IMG/VR virus record: IMGVR_UViG_3300000651_000002
Location: 1 to 35,484 of that record
From: a virus
DNA: 35,484 nt
Reading direction: 5' to 3' (one strand)
Below the pieces are notes generated by a model. It was not told the origin of the DNA, made no database searches, and saw only the letters and a program-made list of their open reading frames with translations. Made by a program: the position numbers and the translations under genes. Shown piece by piece: positions 2,525 through 35,484 of this stretch (the stretch's first letter is position 1; the number at the start of each line of letters is the position of its first letter).

Positions 2525-3523
2525 TCAGCTCGCGAGGATCACATCGACAAGAGCAGACTGAGCGTTGCGCTTAGCTGGCGTCATTCGGCCTACCCCGTAT
2601 ACATCCATTGTTGTACTGATGTGCGCGTGCCGCATCAGCTCTTTCATGATGCCTATCGGTGTACCAATCTCATCGAGCCAGCGGCGGTAAGAATGGCGGA
2701 AGGCGTGCCATCCCAAAGGTCTGGTAAGTCCCGCTGCGACTCCAGCGGGGTGCAGGTGCTTTTGACAGATCGAGTCCTGATGGTAGGGCCGACCGGTTAC
2801 CGGGCTTGGGAATACCCAGTTTCCCGGCGATCTTGGGCACGTCTTACGGTAAGCAATGAGCGCTTGTGCGAGAGCGGGCGCGACCGGAACGAGATCTTCG
2901 GAGCTTTCAGTCTTCGTTTCTGCGACACGTCCGGAGCAGGAAGCACGCTCGATCGTGAGTGTTTGCAGAGAGAAATCGAAATCATCCCACTGCAACGCAA
3001 CTACCTCCGACGCACGTAATCCTAGTAGACCGGAGAGCAGCGACATGGTACGGTATGGCTCTATGAGATTCGCGAGCACGCGATGAAACTCTGTCTGTGT
3101 CAGGAGGTGCGGACGATGTCTTCGGCGACATCCACCTCTGACCCGTGCGAGCGTTACGGGATTGTGACTGGCGAGTTCCCACCGTACAGCAAAGCTGAAA
3201 AGCGAGTGCATGAGGCTCCTGCGGTGAGCTCGGGTCTTGGGCGAGCATTCCAGCTCGGCAAGCCAGAGTTCGATATCGGGCGTCCTGATGGCGCTGACCG
3301 GAAGATTGCCCCAGCGCGGCCCGATCCACTTGCGGAGCATCGATTCATAGGCTACGCGAGTACTGTGATGATCGGGCATTTCGTAGTTGCGAAACCGATC
3401 GATGATACTGGAAAAGGTCGTATCCCCCGGCGGCTTGTCTGTGTTCCAAATTGCAGTGGACGGCGTCTGAGGGAGAGTGTACGTATTGAGTTTTGCAGCG
3501 GGGTAGGGGACAGTTGGGCTCAT
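2525..3523 (-). CDS. int: Phage integrase (tyrosine recombinase), start codon inside attP
   Basis: This 332-aa integrase has a core-binding SAM-like domain at about residues 35-130 and a catalytic domain at 138-325. The catalytic residues are R170 (LGLRASEV), a candidate Lys near 204, H273-x-x-R276 (HAFRHS), H299 (MRHA) and Y309 (DVYG). It should catalyse integration into and excision from a host tRNA-fMet gene. The only usable start is ATG 3521-3523: there is no ATG, GTG or TTG between it and Met49, which would cut into the core-binding domain, and an in-frame TGA lies just upstream. This ATG is the complement of the CAU anticodon of the attP tRNA remnant, and no SD precedes it. The sequence style resembles integrases common in Acidobacteriota; that is recollection, not a search result. 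Confidence 0.93.
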   Translation of the reverse strand: MSPTVPYPAAKLNTYTLPQTPSTAIWNTDKPPGDTTFSSIIDRFRNYEMPDHHSTRVAYESMLRKWIGPRWGNLPVSAIRTPDIELWLAELECSPKTRAHRRSLMHSLFSFAVRWELASHNPVTLARVRGGCRRRHRPHLLTQTEFHRVLANLIEPYRTMSLLSGLLGLRASEVVALQWDDFDFSLQTLTIERASCSGRVAETKTESSEDLVPVAPALAQALIAYRKTCPRSPGNWVFPSPVTGRPYHQDSICQKHLHPAGVAAGLTRPLGWHAFRHSYRRWLDEIGTPIGIMKELMRHAHISTTMDVYGVGRMTPAKRNAQSALVDVILAS

Positions 3524-3563
3524 AACCCAAAGGTCGAAGGTTCAAATCCTTCCCCCGCAACCA
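3513..3563 (+). other. attP: attP core: 3' fragment of an initiator tRNA-fMet(CAU)
   Basis: The segment folds as the 3' two-thirds of a tRNA. It has an anticodon arm TTGGG-CTCATAA-CCCAA, variable loop AGGTC, T arm GAAGG-TTCAAAT-CCTTC, acceptor 3' strand CCCCGCA, then A-CCA. Three consecutive G:C pairs beside a CAU loop are the hallmark of initiator tRNA. The 5' acceptor strand and D arm are missing: only about eight bases separate a GCGGGGT-like string from the anticodon stem. It is therefore not a working tRNA but an attachment core that rebuilds the host tRNA 3' end on integration. It abuts and overlaps int. Confidence 0.88.
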
Positions 3564-5961: not shown

Positions 5962-6009
5962 ATGACCACTGAGGAGCGTGGCATGATTCCGGAAGGAGTG
6001 CCTTCGTGA
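5962..6009 (+). CDS. 15-codon ORF leading into the TIR gene
   Basis: MTTEERGMIPEGVPS ends in a TGA that overlaps the GTG start of the TIR gene. Its first six residues and 16 of 17 bases match the start of the small gene at 6656. It is either the stump of a gene interrupted by the TIR insertion or a coupling leader peptide. An SD (GGAAGGAG) for the TIR gene lies inside it. Confidence 0.45.
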   Translation: MTTEERGMIPEGVPS

Positions 6010-6650
6010 GAATCTTCATCAGTTGGTCTGGCCAGCAGAGCCGGAATTTCGCCGAGGAGCTGAAGCCGTGGCTGGAGCAGGTCCTTCCCGGAACAGACGT
6101 GTGGTTGTCGAGCGAGGATATTGACAAAGGCACGATCTGGTTCACCGAGATCATCGGGGAGTTGCAGCAATGCAATTGCGGGGTGATCTGCATCACGCGG
6201 GAGAATCATCTCGCGCCGTGGATTCATTTCGAGGCGGGCGGGATGGTGACCGGCCTAGGAAAAACTCACGTCGCCACTATTCTGCTTGACCTTGACCATC
6301 ACGACCTCGTTCAGCCGCTGAATCAGTTCAACGGCCTGCGCCTGAATCGCGAAGGTGCGTGGCACCTCGTGAAGTCTTTCAATAAAATTTCAGATCGCCC
6401 CATCAAGGATCGCGTGCTGGAGCGCACGTTCGAAAAGTTCTGGCCCGATCTGGAAGAGGCCTTCAAGCTGCAATTTCCGCAGTCGTACGAGACCGCCCGG
6501 ACTATCGTGCAACCCGTGCATATCGCGCCGAAACCGACCGAGACGGTTCTTGGACCGCCTTCCGTGCCGTCCGGGAAACTCCGGCGGCGCAAGCCGGATG
6601 ACGAGCGCGAAACGCCGACCCTTTTCAATGGCGTTCTCGATGAGGAGTAA
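6006..6650 (+). CDS. TIR-domain protein (putative NAD-consuming effector)
   Basis: This 214-aa protein has a TIR_2-type domain at residues 1-155. It starts with FISWSG (4-9), followed by SSEDIDKG (35-42), GVICITREN (59-67) and the segment APWIHFEAGG, in which E76 is at the catalytic glutamate position of bacterial TIR NADases and cyclases. The C-terminal 55 residues are polar and probably disordered. No sensor domain (STING, SAVED, SLOG, Argonaute) is fused or adjacent. It starts at GTG 6006 behind a strong SD. Family members act in cell suicide or signalling during phage infection. In a temperate phage it is best read as cargo against competing phages, or less likely as a host-NAD manipulator. 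A 17-bp duplicated sequence flanks the gene. Confidence 0.85.
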   Translation: MRIFISWSGQQSRNFAEELKPWLEQVLPGTDVWLSSEDIDKGTIWFTEIIGELQQCNCGVICITRENHLAPWIHFEAGGMVTGLGKTHVATILLDLDHHDLVQPLNQFNGLRLNREGAWHLVKSFNKISDRPIKDRVLERTFEKFWPDLEEAFKLQFPQSYETARTIVQPVHIAPKPTETVLGPPSVPSGKLRRRKPDDERETPTLFNGVLDEE

Positions 6651-15016: not shown

Positions 15017-15601
15017 TTGAAGAATGCAACTCCGAAGCAGGCCGCGTTTCTGTCGGCCTATGCAGAGCTAGGGAACGTAACGGCGGCAGCGGCAGCGGCG
15101 AACATCGCCCGGTCGTCTCACCACAACTGGATGGACGATCCGAAGTACGCGGAGGCTTTTGCTGAAGCGCATGAGGAAGCGTGCGACCGGCTGGAGACAG
15201 AGGCCCGGCGCAGGGCAATAGAAGGCGTAGAAGAGCCCGTCATTCACAAGGGAGAGCTTTGCTACGTCACTGACCGGCAAAGCCGCCAGAAGCGCGTACT
15301 GACGGTAAAGAAGCTCAGCGACACGCTTTTGATCTTCCTGCTTAAAGGCGCGAGACCGGACAAATATCGCGACAACTCGAAGATTGAGCACTCGGGCGCG
15401 GTGAACGGCTTTATACGGACCAAGGTAGACCTTTCGAACCTGACTGATGAGCAACTCTCTACTCTCGAATCAATCGCCCGCGCAGCTACTGGACCTTCAG
15501 GCGATCGAAGCCGAGAAGATACGCCGGTCACGCCGGAAGATGGACCGCTTCTTCGCGTTGGAGGGACCGTACCGGAGGGAGCTGTACCCGAAGCACCTTG
15601 A
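15017..15601 (+). CDS. terS: Terminase small subunit
   Basis: This 194-aa protein has an N-terminal HTH (about residues 5-45): KQAAFLSAYAELGNVTAAAA, then a second helix with HHNWMDDPKYAEAF. The central oligomerisation helices follow. The segment IEGVEEPVIHKGE...LLIFLLKGARPDKYRD is typical of phage TerS. It recognises pac and loads the large subunit. It starts at TTG 15017. The last 52 codons overlap the TerL ATPase gene in another frame. First gene of the virion operon. Confidence 0.85.
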   Translation: MKNATPKQAAFLSAYAELGNVTAAAAAANIARSSHHNWMDDPKYAEAFAEAHEEACDRLETEARRRAIEGVEEPVIHKGELCYVTDRQSRQKRVLTVKKLSDTLLIFLLKGARPDKYRDNSKIEHSGAVNGFIRTKVDLSNLTDEQLSTLESIARAATGPSGDRSREDTPVTPEDGPLLRVGGTVPEGAVPEAP

Positions 15602-16160
15602 GCTGTTTGCTGCCGGTGCGAAGCATCGAGAGCGGTGCTTTATGGCTGCGAATCGTGTCGGCAAGACTGAGGCCGGTGCGTATGAGACTGCGCTTCATCT
15701 GACCGGCGCATACCCGGACTGGTGGCCCGGCAAGCGATTCGACCGTGGCATTAAAGCCTGGGCCGCTGGGGATACGAGCAAGAGTGTACGCGAGATCGTG
15801 CAGGAGAAGCTTCTGGGCAAGCCGGGGCAGCTCGGCACGGGGATGATACCGGGCGACTCGATCGTACACACCACGGCAAAGGCAGGCGTATCTGGCGCGA
15901 TCGACACCGTATGGGTACGGCACGCATCCGGCGAGAATTCGCACCTTGTGCTGAAGAGCTATGACCAGCGGCGCGAATCGTTCCAGGGATCGGAGCAGTC
16001 GTTCATCTGGCTTGACGAAGAGAGCCCTCTGGACATTTACACGGAATGCCTGCTGCGAACGATGACTACCGGCGGATTGATTCTGCTTACATTCACACCG
16101 TTGCAAGGTCTCTCCGAGGTTGTCCTTTCGTTCATGCCGGAACTACAGATTACGCAATGA
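15447..16160 (+). CDS. terL-N: Terminase large subunit, ATPase half (split gene)
   Basis: This 237-aa protein holds the packaging motor ATPase domain only. It has Walker A AANRVGKT (67-74), Walker B FIWLDEE (186-192, catalytic E191/E192) and the coupling motif TFTPLQG (215-221). The protein ends at TGA 16158-16160, just past the coupling motif where the linker to the nuclease domain should begin. The nuclease half is a separate cistron at 16365-17108, in the same frame. Together the two halves are 484 aa, a normal TerL length. The next ORF starts in an ATGA overlap. Confidence 0.9.
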   Translation: MSNSLLSNQSPAQLLDLQAIEAEKIRRSRRKMDRFFALEGPYRRELYPKHLELFAAGAKHRERCFMAANRVGKTEAGAYETALHLTGAYPDWWPGKRFDRGIKAWAAGDTSKSVREIVQEKLLGKPGQLGTGMIPGDSIVHTTAKAGVSGAIDTVWVRHASGENSHLVLKSYDQRRESFQGSEQSFIWLDEESPLDIYTECLLRTMTTGGLILLTFTPLQGLSEVVLSFMPELQITQ

Positions 16161-16372
16161 GTCACGCAACGCGAGCATACAAAGAATCGAAGCGCAGGCA
16201 GGCGCAGGAAGCACGCAAGCTTAACCGGATGGAAGACCGCATTCGCTGGTGCGCTGCGCGTATCGGCAACGATGCGGAGCTGGACACTCTGCTTGCCGGT
16301 GCGAGCGCAATCGAACGAGCGGCAATGATTGACCGGCTACGGCCATATCTGCGGTTCACACCGGGTGAGTAA
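16157..16372 (+). CDS. 71-aa ORF inserted between the two TerL halves
   Basis: It reads MSHATRAYKESKRRQAQEAR, then a helical body (GNDAELDTLLAGASAIERAA) ending RPYLRFTPGE. The charge-balanced helical composition and its exact ATGA and GTGAGTAA overlaps with the flanking TerL cistrons indicate real translation. It has no nuclease, intron or intein motif. Its type recalls small hypothetical proteins near phage packaging genes. It may help the two TerL halves assemble, or simply be an inserted gene. Confidence 0.75.
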   Translation: MSHATRAYKESKRRQAQEARKLNRMEDRIRWCAARIGNDAELDTLLAGASAIERAAMIDRLRPYLRFTPGE

Positions 16373-17108
16373 GTATCTCGTTTCGGCGACGTGGGACGAT
16401 TGCCCGCACTTGTCGCAAGAGGTCAAAGACGAGTTATGGCGATCGATACCGCCTCATCAGAGAGACGCTCGATCGCGGGGAGTTCCTGCCCTGGGATCGG
16501 GCGCTGTATACCCGGTCCCAGAGTCCGAGATAGTTGTTGGCGATTTCCCGATACCAGACCATTACCGGCGTTCCTACGGGCTAGACGTTGGGTGGAACCG
16601 GACGGCAGCAATCTTCGCCGCCGACGACCTGGACAGCGGGACAACGTATCTCTACAGCGAATACTATCGCGGGGAAGCTGAGCCCGTCGTCCACGCGCAG
16701 GCCATCAAGGCCAGGGGGAGCTGGATTCCGGGGGTCATTGACCCGGCTGCGCGTGGACGCGGGCAAGCTGATGGCACGCGACTGCTCCAAATGTACATCG
16801 ATCTCGGGCTCGATCTGACGATCGCCGACAACAGCGTTGAGGCCGGTCTGTACGAGGTATGGGGAGCACTGAGCAGTGGCCGGTTAAAGGTGTTCCGATC
16901 GCTCACAAACTGGCTCAGCGAGTTCCGTTTGTATCGCAGGGATGAGAAGGGCCGGATCGTCAAAGAGCGCGACCACTTGATGGACTGCACCCGTTACCGG
17001 CACATGAGTGGCAGAGAGATAGCGATAGCAAAGCCGAAGCCGAAGGATCCGAATGCATGGGCTCCGACAGATGGCACGTTCGGCGATTCAGGAGGGTGGA
17101 TGTCATGA
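16365..17108 (+). CDS. terL-C: Terminase large subunit, nuclease half (split gene)
   Basis: This 247-aa protein starts at GTG 16365 inside the stop of the 71-aa ORF. It opens with SKYLVSATWDDCPHLS, the segment that normally follows the ATPase domain by a short linker. The RNase H-like nuclease fold shows LDVGWN (D74), VIDPAARG (D126) and DHLMDCTR (D203/D207) as metal-binding acid candidates. It should cut concatemers to headful length. There is no strong SD, so translation likely depends on coupling. An upstream TTG (16329) in the same frame is a less likely start. Confidence 0.9.
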   Translation: MSKYLVSATWDDCPHLSQEVKDELWRSIPPHQRDARSRGVPALGSGAVYPVPESEIVVGDFPIPDHYRRSYGLDVGWNRTAAIFAADDLDSGTTYLYSEYYRGEAEPVVHAQAIKARGSWIPGVIDPAARGRGQADGTRLLQMYIDLGLDLTIADNSVEAGLYEVWGALSSGRLKVFRSLTNWLSEFRLYRRDEKGRIVKERDHLMDCTRYRHMSGREIAIAKPKPKDPNAWAPTDGTFGDSGGWMS

Positions 17109-17326
17109 AAAACGTATTGAACAAACTTGGACAGAAGACGACGATTGCTGGTATTGCATCGCTGGTGGGCATTGGTCTCGCGGCTTATGGCAATCCTGCG
17201 ATTCTGGCGAATCCGCAGATGATCGCAACGATCGTGACCAGCGTTGGGCTCATTGCAGCCGCCGACGACAAGCCAAAGACACAAGCACCGAATGCAGCCG
17301 CCGACGCGAATGAAACAAAGCACTGA
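17105..17326 (+). CDS. 73-aa membrane protein between terminase and portal
   Basis: MKNVLNKLGQKTTIAGIASL continues to two hydrophobic helices (about residues 12-29 and 38-52) and a polar Lys/Ala tail. It starts in an ATGA overlap with TerL-C. Two-helix small membrane proteins of this type are sometimes holins. Its unusual place inside the packaging block could mean a holin moved from its usual site, but no lysin is nearby. It overlaps the portal start. Confidence 0.6.
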   Translation: MKNVLNKLGQKTTIAGIASLVGIGLAAYGNPAILANPQMIATIVTSVGLIAAADDKPKTQAPNAAADANETKH

Positions 17327-19451
17327 TCAGGACATCCTCGATCTCGCTCATAAACGCTTCCGCATTGCGGCTGACGCGGAGTCACGCATACGCGAGGTTG
17401 CGCTTGAGGACTGGCGTTTTCGCGCCGGTGACCAGTGGCCGGAAGAGGTACGCAAACAGCGCGAACTGGACCGGCGACCGTGCCTGACGATCAACAGATT
17501 GCCCGCGTTTTTGCGGCAAATTACGAACGAACAGCGGCAGAACCGGCCTGCGATCCAGGTGGATCCGGTTGACGACCAGGGCGACGTAGAGACAGCCGAA
17601 ATCGAGCAAGGACTCATCAGACACATCGAGATGAACTCGAATGCTGATGTCGCTTATGACTCCGCATTTGAGCACATGGCGACCGGCGGATTCGGCTACC
17701 TTCGCGTCATCACCGATTACGTTGATGATCAGTCGTTTGACCAGGAAATCCTCATCAAACGGGTGAAGAATCCGTTCTCGGTGTACTTCGATCCGCATGT
17801 GCAGGAGGCCGACGGCAGCGATGCCCGCTACTGCTTCATCGTTGACGACATGCCGGTCGATGAATACAAAGCTCAGTATGGCGACAGCGAGCTGGCCGGT
17901 TGGGAGACGTACTCTGCGCTGGGCGATCGTGGCGTCACTGACTGGATCTCGGAAGAGACGATCCGCATAGCTGAGTACATGTACGTCGAAACGAAGACAC
18001 GTACGTTGTGCCTGATGCCGGATGGTCAGACTCTCTTTGAAGACGAGTACGAAGGCTCGAAAGAGCAGGCAGTAAAGTGCCGCGAAGTACAGCAAAAGGT
18101 CATCAACTGGTGCAAGATTAACGGCACCGAGATTCTCGAAAAGAAGAGCTGGCCGGGCAAGTGGATCCCGGTCGTTCCGGTATACGGCGACGAGATCATC
18201 CTCGACGGAGAGCGCCAGTTAATCAGCATGATCCGCTATGCGAAGGACGCGCAAAGGGCCTACAACTACTGGTCATCGAGCGAGACCGAGACCATCGCAC
18301 TGGCTCCGCGAGCGCCGTTTATCGGCGTAGAGGGACAGTTCGAGGGACATGAGACGAAGTGGCGTGACGCGAACAGTCGCAACTTCCCTTACCTCGAATA
18401 CAAACAGAAACTGATCGGTGGACAGCCTGCGCCGCCGCCCATGCGTCAGGTCTATGAGCCGCCGATTCAGGCCATATCAATGGCCCGTATGCAGGCTGCG
18501 GACGATCTGAAGGCGACGATGGGTATGTTCGATGCATCGCTGGGAGCGCAGGGGAATGAGACATCGGGTAAGGCCATTCTGGCACGGCAACGGGAAGGCG
18601 ATGTCGCCAATTTCCATCTGATCGATAACTTGTCCCGTGCGATGAAGCATCTGGGCCGGATACTGCTGGATCTGATCCCGAAGATCTATGACACCGCAAG
18701 GGTCATACGGATTATCGGGCTCGATGAAGAGCAGAAGACCGTACGGATCAATCAGCCATCCGGTGACGTTGACGACGAGGGTCTGGAGAAGATCTACGAT
18801 CTCAGCGTTGGCAAGTACGACGTATCGGTCACGGTCGGCCCGTCATTCGCATCGAAGCGGCAGGAAGCTGCGGAATCGATGATGCAGTTGACGCAGAGTT
18901 ATCCGGCGCTGATGCAAGTTGCCGGTGACCTGATGGTCCGAAACATGGACTGGCCGGGCGCTGAGGAGATCTCGCAACGGTTGAAGATGCTCTTACCGCC
19001 TGAGATCAAACAGCAGGAAGACCAGCAGGGACAGCCGCAACAGCAGATCCCGCCAGCGGTGCTTCAGCAGTTCATGAGTCAAAACGAGCAGTTGACGGCA
19101 GCGTTGAATGAAGCGCACAAATTGCTCGAAACCAAAATGATGGAGCTTCAGAGCAGAGAGCGCATCGAGTCGATGCGTATCCAGGCCGATCTGCTCAAGA
19201 CGGAGGCCCAGCTCGGCGCTAAGGATTCGATCGCTCAGCTCCAACTGGAGTTGCAGCATATCAATCAATGGCAACAGCGACTGGATGCTCAGCAGGCTTC
19301 GTATATGCAGCAAATGCAGAGCGAAGCTCAGCGTGCTCATGAAAGCCAGATGAGTGCTCAGCAGGCGCAACAGCAACAGGCAGCGGCTCAACAGCAAGCT
19401 GCCTTAGCGCCGCCTCCGCAGCAGCAGTCATCAATGCCCGAAGCTGCATAA
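17310..19451 (+). CDS. P22-type portal protein
   Basis: This 713-aa protein matches the length of the P22 portal (about 725 aa). The N-terminal region MKQSTDQDILDLAHKRFRIA, then DWRFRAGDQWPEEVRKQRE and PCLTINRLPAFLRQITNEQR, is characteristic of P22-like portals. The stem and wing follow, with GMFDASLGAQGNETSGKAIL. The C-terminal 140 residues are a Gln-rich helical barrel-like region. It forms the dodecameric ring through which DNA enters and leaves. ATG 17310 was chosen over TTG 17244, which overlaps the upstream gene extensively. Confidence 0.93.
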   Translation: MKQSTDQDILDLAHKRFRIAADAESRIREVALEDWRFRAGDQWPEEVRKQRELDRRPCLTINRLPAFLRQITNEQRQNRPAIQVDPVDDQGDVETAEIEQGLIRHIEMNSNADVAYDSAFEHMATGGFGYLRVITDYVDDQSFDQEILIKRVKNPFSVYFDPHVQEADGSDARYCFIVDDMPVDEYKAQYGDSELAGWETYSALGDRGVTDWISEETIRIAEYMYVETKTRTLCLMPDGQTLFEDEYEGSKEQAVKCREVQQKVINWCKINGTEILEKKSWPGKWIPVVPVYGDEIILDGERQLISMIRYAKDAQRAYNYWSSSETETIALAPRAPFIGVEGQFEGHETKWRDANSRNFPYLEYKQKLIGGQPAPPPMRQVYEPPIQAISMARMQAADDLKATMGMFDASLGAQGNETSGKAILARQREGDVANFHLIDNLSRAMKHLGRILLDLIPKIYDTARVIRIIGLDEEQKTVRINQPSGDVDDEGLEKIYDLSVGKYDVSVTVGPSFASKRQEAAESMMQLTQSYPALMQVAGDLMVRNMDWPGAEEISQRLKMLLPPEIKQQEDQQGQPQQQIPPAVLQQFMSQNEQLTAALNEAHKLLETKMMELQSRERIESMRIQADLLKTEAQLGAKDSIAQLQLELQHINQWQQRLDAQQASYMQQMQSEAQRAHESQMSAQQAQQQQAAAQQQAALAPPPQQQSSMPEAA

Positions 19452-34575: not shown

Positions 34576-35484
34576 TCTATTGCGTTCGGCAGCGTTGCCT
34601 CCGGGGCACTTCCTGTATGCGAAGCCGAAGCCGGTCTATGGCAGCTCGCGGATTCTGGACGATGACGGCAACGTGATCTATGACCAGAGGGCCGCTGATG
34701 AGTATGCCCGTGTTTCCGGCCTCGACGGCATGGGGATAATCGATCCGGTGACGCATGACATCGCGCCGCTGACGCCTCCGGGTATGTTTATTGGTGCGCT
34801 TGGCCGGGTCGGCGAGGAGATCGCGAAGGATCCCTGGTCGCTCCGCAGCTATGCAAACGCGGCTCACGCCTTTCAGGAGATGGGTGGCGTCGATCCGATG
34901 CTGCACACCAGTCTGGCGTCTGTCGGCGCGGCCAAAAAAGGCTCGCGTGCGTTGCCGCTGGGTGCGGGGATGGAGCTGAACGGGGAGAACGTCCTTGAGA
35001 TCGCCCGCCGGTTGAATGCCGGTGAGGGAACCTCGTACGGGCAATGGGTGAAAGAGAATCCTGAGGCCGGTGGGACGCTCTTTGATCTCGCGAACGCGCA
35101 GCCCGCTGGGGTATTTCCGCCGGGACAGATTCCCCGGTATGAACCGGCGCGAGGCGTGCCGGATCGCATCGTCGAAGCCTTCAAGAACCCACGGGTGCGG
35201 AAGCAGCTCAATGAATGGGTCAGTGCCGGTATGGAGAAGATGCCGGATTCCTGGTATCGAACCAGGCCGCTCTTTGATGAGTTCGTCAAGGAGTGGGGGC
35301 CGGAACGTGCTCCGATCGAGATGCAGAAGACGTTGCAGGATATTGCTGCGACATCGACCAGCGCAAAGGTTCCTGACAACCTGAAGATCGCGAGCCTGTA
35401 CAGCTACCTCGAAGGGCAGGGTCTGCCCGTCCCTGACAAGCCGCCCGCCGGCGAGCCCTCTGAATGGCAGGAGAAGATGTGGGT
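34556..35484 (+). CDS. 5' part of last virion-region gene (389 aa across the junction)
   Basis: It starts at ATG 34556 behind GGAGG, overlapping the gp16-like gene by 20 bp. It runs off the window end and continues at position 46 in the same frame to TAG 284-286. Sequence: MPDRLSDLLRSAALPPGHFL, then DPVTHDIAPLTPPGMFIGAL and PLGAGMELNGENVLEIARRL. It is not recognised; there is no lysozyme or spike signature. Its position suggests an additional ejected or tail-associated protein. Confidence 0.85.
   Translation, partial: MPDRLSDLLRSAALPPGHFLYAKPKPVYGSSRILDDDGNVIYDQRAADEYARVSGLDGMGIIDPVTHDIAPLTPPGMFIGALGRVGEEIAKDPWSLRSYANAAHAFQEMGGVDPMLHTSLASVGAAKKGSRALPLGAGMELNGENVLEIARRLNAGEGTSYGQWVKENPEAGGTLFDLANAQPAGVFPPGQIPRYEPARGVPDRIVEAFKNPRVRKQLNEWVSAGMEKMPDSWYRTRPLFDEFVKEWGPERAPIEMQKTLQDIAATSTSAKVPDNLKIASLYSYLEGQGLPVPDKPPAGEPSEWQEKMW
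35440..35484. repeat. Terminal direct repeat, right copy
   Basis: Identical to 1-45; see that entry. Removing one copy gives a circular genome of 35,439 bp. Confidence 0.95.

Follow-up and report, generated by a model that had tools for sequence, protein, structure and literature searches.

The question raised by this locus is whether a large terminase (TerL) encoded in two pieces, with a small gene between them, amounts to a new packaging motor of three parts or to a motor gene that has been broken. The DNA analyzed, hereafter the window, is the whole stretch of 35,484 nucleotides of the virus record IMGVR_UViG_3300000651_000002. The features of the region are the following:

15017-15601, + strand: TerS (small terminase); PHROG terminase small subunit, 4e-35
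15447-16160, + strand: TerL-N, 237 aa; ASCE ATPase core, placed by Pfam, PHROG, and motif positions
16157-16160, + strand: ATGA overlap of the TerL-N stop and the small ORF start, read from the sequence
16157-16372, + strand: small ORF, 71 aa; helical, putative packaging-cassette passenger gene, judged from profile, neighbours, and model
16365-16372, + strand: GTGAGTAA overlap of the TerL-C start and the small ORF stop, read from the sequence
16365-17108, + strand: TerL-C, GTG start, 247 aa; end of the ATPase domain and RNase H-like nuclease
17244-19451, + strand: P22-like portal; Pfam P22_portal, 4e-197; ORF taken from the first possible start

The gene order was TerS, TerL-N, the 71-aa ORF, TerL-C, a short ORF, and the P22-like portal. 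The split of TerL is a real observation: an earlier note on this DNA had described two pieces with a 71-codon ORF between them and ATGA and GTGAGTAA overlaps, and the ORFs lie exactly at these positions. That note also had the two halves in the same frame, and this was seen in the sequence, with two in-frame TGA stops separating them. The gap between the halves is 204 nt, and the ORF list of the window holds no second TerL ORF. This TerL of the P22-like (Terminase_6) kind is thus two cistrons in the window and not a single polypeptide. The terS and terL ORFs overlap at 15447-15601 by 155 nt, versus 56 nt in EBPR podovirus 1.

Concerning the rest of the genome, a 45-bp direct repeat at positions 1-45 and 35440-35484 marks the contig as a complete circular assembly of ~35.4 kb. 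Two adjacent tyrosine recombinases were found (1735-2460, + strand; 2525-3523, − strand), and an Rfam tRNA match at 3497-3560 overlaps the start of the second; this is probably the attachment site of a temperate phage. A phage-borne TIR-domain protein of defence type is encoded at 6006-6650 on the + strand (Pfam TIR_2, 7e-10; PADLOC TIR-TM, 1e-45).

We located the cut with respect to the domains of TerL. TerL-N matched Pfam PF03237 (Terminase_6N; 4e-18, profile positions 1-148), the PHROG terminase large subunit (4e-15), and phrog_31467 (4.5e-63), and it contains a Walker A motif (NRVGKTE), a Walker B motif (FIWLDEE), and a coupling motif (TFTP); the PF03237 match and the motifs identify the ASCE ATPase of a P22-like/Terminase_6 TerL. 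The RNase H-like nuclease was recognized in TerL-C by the match to PF17289 (Terminase_6C; 3e-9) and by acidic residues that align with D308, D360, and D441 of a fused relative (L001). The tail of Terminase_6N (profile 164-214) fell in TerL-C, not in TerL-N. A structure model of L001 (pLDDT 88.9) was then compared with solved structures. The ATPase domain of P74-26 spanned residues ~27 to 276-290 of the model, and the nuclease domains of SPP1, G20c, P74-26, and Sf6 began at residues 277-280; on the same numbering the window cut corresponds to residues ~230-240 and the coupling motif, before the cut, to 212-217. The nuclease structure of P22 gp2 (4dkw) aligned to another fused relative (L058) from its LGVGAIYPL motif onward, and the matching motif lies ~43 residues into the window TerL-C. 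Considering the end of Terminase_6N found in TerL-C and the structural comparison of the L001 model, the cut is within the ATPase domain, past the coupling motif and ~45 residues short of the nuclease domain. It separates the ASCE core from the last strand and lid helices, so that TerL-C comprises these last ~45 ATPase residues plus the nuclease. The earlier note had placed the motifs and the nuclease well; its division into ATPase and nuclease cistrons is imprecise because the cut falls inside the ATPase domain, whose end is also held by TerL-C.

To see the state of the gene in relatives, both TerL halves were searched by tblastn over 157 viral loci. Most relatives carry an uninterrupted TerL, and many have the N and C parts out of frame with each other or divided by stops; once near-copies were removed, 36 of the 121 nonredundant TerL loci were split at the junction of the window. 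Splits were also present in bacteria-assigned contigs (L177, L178, L179). On both FastTree and IQ-TREE phylogenies the split state required 15 parsimony changes, versus ~31 with shuffled labels, and strong branches forced no fewer than 10 of the 15. Relatives with a fused TerL lacking the insert, which the earlier note had proposed to look for, were found even among the nearest ones: the strongly supported tree partner of the window (L091) is fused, and the fused TerL of L001 is 71% identical to that of the window. Two complementary ORFs stand where the nearest relatives have one, as in genes in pieces, and the window split is an event of its own among fused relatives.

The geometry of the splits was also recurrent. 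In most of them the C cistron begins at one same residue, [M/V]-S-[K/R]. In splits without an insert the overlap of N with C is often 1 or 4 nt. An insert ORF, when present, usually has an overlap of 4 nt with the N stop and of 4 or 8 nt with the C start. The 4-nt overlap at the N stop of the window recurs in many independent splits, the 8-nt geometry of its C start is that of endonuclease-insert loci (L040, L045, L107, L113), and its 4/8 pattern is shared with the endonuclease inserts of L040 and L113. Almost all the compared loci, like the window, are metagenome assemblies, and a frameshift error could be hidden in some of the splits that lack an insert; the precise ATGA and TAATG overlaps argue against such errors.

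With respect to conservation, the window TerL retains 92 of the 94 residues that are invariant among 27 fused relatives. The same residues were kept on average at 89.5 positions in the 36 splits and at 88.4 in the 58 other fused TerLs, and given these similar counts the halves look as constrained as an intact TerL. We infer that they re-form a working motor.

What occupies the gap differs among relatives. Pfam recognized endonuclease VII-like genes (L113, L022), HNH (L040), HNH_3 with AP2 (L082, L102), and T5orf172 (L045). In Podoviridae sp. ct2G2228 the gap contains a 46-aa ORF that resembles by eye the C-terminus of AP2-HNH proteins, with no Pfam match, and is apparently a remnant of such an endonuclease. 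Other split loci have unrelated small ORFs in the gap or an empty gap. Some empty-gap loci cluster with endonuclease loci (L136 with L113 and L107; L103 with L082 and L102; L089 with L045), a mixing consistent with endonucleases having been gained and lost while the split persisted, in which the sequence of events is not ordered. The insert of L064 has a relative that sits after the fused terL of L084. In another clade a 66-aa family (NPAVRDNLLKMVTEKGI...) occupies the same TerL gap (L154:4804-5004, L147:1357-1557, L146, L153, L133), in some cases duplicated or joined by two more genes. In the Xanthobacteraceae contig L179 (3908-6841) the TerL halves are ~1.4 kb apart, with several ORFs between them, of which one is membrane-protein-like and another has 264 aa. 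The window gap holds no homing endonuclease, its insert being of another family without Pfam match, and no endonuclease remnant was recognizable in the window. For this reason the origin of its break is judged from the relatives, which point to an endonuclease as the most likely one.

A key aspect is the nature of the 71-aa protein. The ORF had no Pfam match, and a direct protein search of phage records, a check proposed in the earlier note, was empty as well; profile and pattern scans did reveal a family. Its members lie in loci of the phage group of the window (L157, L004, L058, L162, L070, L040), with less certain ones in L043, L024, and L115. A profile made without the window and L157 recovered the window ORF at E = 2e-12, and the best E of the reversed-sequence control, with a four-seed profile, was 0.16. 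Since the family evolves fast, few members were recovered by the DNA-pattern scans and its distribution is under-sampled. The relatives are found between terL and portal (L070, L040, L024), ahead of the portal (L162, L157), or directly ahead of terS (L058, L115), and in several loci they adjoin an intact fused TerL (L058, L070, L024). L004 is ambiguous: its contig has a TerL N part but lacks the C part, and the family member lies 1.7 kb downstream of the N part. Longer members (L162:3567-4199, L024:2064-2645) have a cysteine-rich, zinc-finger-like C-terminal part. The structure model of the 71-aa protein consists of three helices (pLDDT 87), and the fold search with it gave no match. The homologues are separate small genes. 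The ORF belongs to a small, fast-evolving packaging-cassette family and is neither a TerL segment nor an endonuclease. Taking into account the relatives beside intact terL, the window ORF is therefore a cassette gene sitting inside terL.

Taken as a whole, we consider it likely that this is a TerL in pieces, reassembled noncovalently, at a hot spot that endonucleases probably opened, with a passenger gene of the cassette in the gap. The earlier note had instead proposed a translationally coupled motor of three cistrons, possibly with a bridging peptide. In a rival reading of this kind the 71-aa protein would be a genuine third subunit, bridging or regulating the TerL halves, and the motor would be obligately three-part. 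Translational coupling would yield co-production, the protein is helical with a model of fair confidence, and its relatives are mostly near terminase or portal genes. However, these relatives are free-standing genes that accompany fused TerLs (L058, L070, L024) and precede terS or the portal, and bridging a cut is therefore not what they are needed for; the gene is missing from most split TerLs, their gap being empty or filled with unrelated genes; and the model found no fold match. We regard an obligate third subunit as improbable. A passenger gene may have been co-opted, and it is doubtful that co-option went as far as a subunit that docks the separate lid-nuclease fragment to the ATPase core and so gives a three-part motor. 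A more serious alternative, although still unlikely, is that homing endonucleases played no part and that duplication-deletion or illegitimate recombination brought the cassette gene from downstream into terL. Same-clade relatives of the 71-aa gene (L070) and of the L064 insert (L084) follow a fused terL, and both would therefore be local genes displaced into terL; the window itself has no endonuclease. On the other hand, the window and its endonuclease-bearing relatives are cut at one and the same residue, and the 8-nt overlap geometry of the window matches that of endonuclease inserts.

Another reading takes the 204 nt as a group I intron, small and self-splicing, or as an intein, whose removal would restore one TerL; terL is spliced in other phages (ICP1, PMC10448857; Jug phages, PMC12363816), and TerL-N and TerL-C share a frame. 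Against it, Rfam gave no match in 15400-17200 at E ≤ 5 and only the tRNA over the window at gathering score, the RNA was no more structured than its shuffles (z −0.6), the insert encodes a protein with free-standing relatives, and each half has a stop and a start of its own, with overlaps common to splits of very different insert length. Splicing is consequently very improbable, and the Rfam, RNA folding, and Pfam searches agree with the earlier note that the insert has no intron, intein, or homing-endonuclease features. No boundary repeats of note, as of a mobile element, were found around the insert. Ribosome bypassing of the T4 gene 60 type was judged unlikely, the gap being 204 nt that code for a conserved protein. 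In a single metagenomic contig one could suspect a mistake of assembly or sequencing, or a terL pseudogene in decay, and yet this is hardly credible: the invariant residues retained, together with the same coupled split in many relatives, show that it is not chance or decay; the ORF of the insert is intact and conserved, and its overlaps are precise; the architecture repeats in independent assemblies, in the bacteria-assigned contigs (L177, L178, L179), and in a GenBank phage record; and the window is a complete circular assembly by its 45-bp end repeat, with no second TerL ORF in its list.

In the TerL in pieces that we propose, a P22-like (Terminase_6) enzyme would be translated from one mRNA, with coupled reinitiation probably taking place at ATGA and then at GTGAGTAA. 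Three products would result: a polypeptide with the ATPase core, the 71-aa protein, and a polypeptide with the lid and the nuclease. The two TerL polypeptides would join noncovalently into a normal packaging motor. The break lies at a hot spot past the coupling motif, where TerL has split repeatedly among relatives, and free-standing genes for homing endonucleases, since decayed or replaced, most likely opened it. The 71-aa gene would be native to the packaging cassette and have moved into the gap, and its product probably acts alone.

The locus is, then, most likely a break in the motor gene that recurs and is tolerated, not a new motor of three parts. Packaging motors are treated as single-chain ATPase-nuclease machines in which force passes from core to lid to nuclease; in the window that chain is broken between core and lid, with both parts conserved and ~10 or more origins, which suggests that the core-lid connection need not be covalent. 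This bears directly on models of force transmission. A fission hot spot of this kind may also be missed by annotation pipelines and can mislead TerL-based phage phylogeny. In the open-access literature we found no prior report of a recurrent core-lid split of TerL, and the phrase "split terminase" is almost absent there.

Among known systems, the TerL of P22 (gp2) is ~35% identical to both window halves and goes with the same portal type; unlike in the window, it is a single chain of 499 aa. Interrupted terL genes are known in phage ICP1, where RNA splicing restores the frame (PMC10448857), and in the Jug phages, whose spliced introns average ~206 nt (PMC12363816); both have endonucleases nearby, and the window differs in giving no intron signal. 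The earlier note had considered a three-cistron, coupled motor with a possible bridging peptide to be new; TerLs in two pieces were themselves already known. In the Arthrobacter cluster AY phages TerL is encoded in two consecutive overlapping genes, and one of them, BillyTP, forms plaques (PMC11920828). BillyTP has a TerL of another family (PF20441 nuclease), nothing between the genes, and an annotated cut between the ATPase and nuclease domains (359 + 198 aa). Podoviridae sp. ct2G2228 (MW202785), annotated in GenBank as two "large terminase" CDS, has the TerL family and the junction of the window with 4-nt overlaps on both sides; its insert is the 46-aa AP2-HNH remnant-like ORF in place of the 71-aa protein. 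The kind of split is ordinary, since genes in pieces are known. In the NrdA of the Aeromonas phage Aeh1 (mobE insertion) and the T4 gp39/gp60 topoisomerase (mobA), as in the window, an essential phage enzyme is made of two polypeptides, and there the cut was made by insertion of a free-standing endonuclease. For Aeh1 NrdA it is established that the insertion leaves a working split enzyme, and overlapping start and stop codons suggesting coupling have been described for such endonuclease genes (PMC2988022). The window differs from these two in that the gene is terL and the gap holds a non-nuclease gene; what is unusual is the position and the recurrence, the break having arisen in this TerL family many times at one site.
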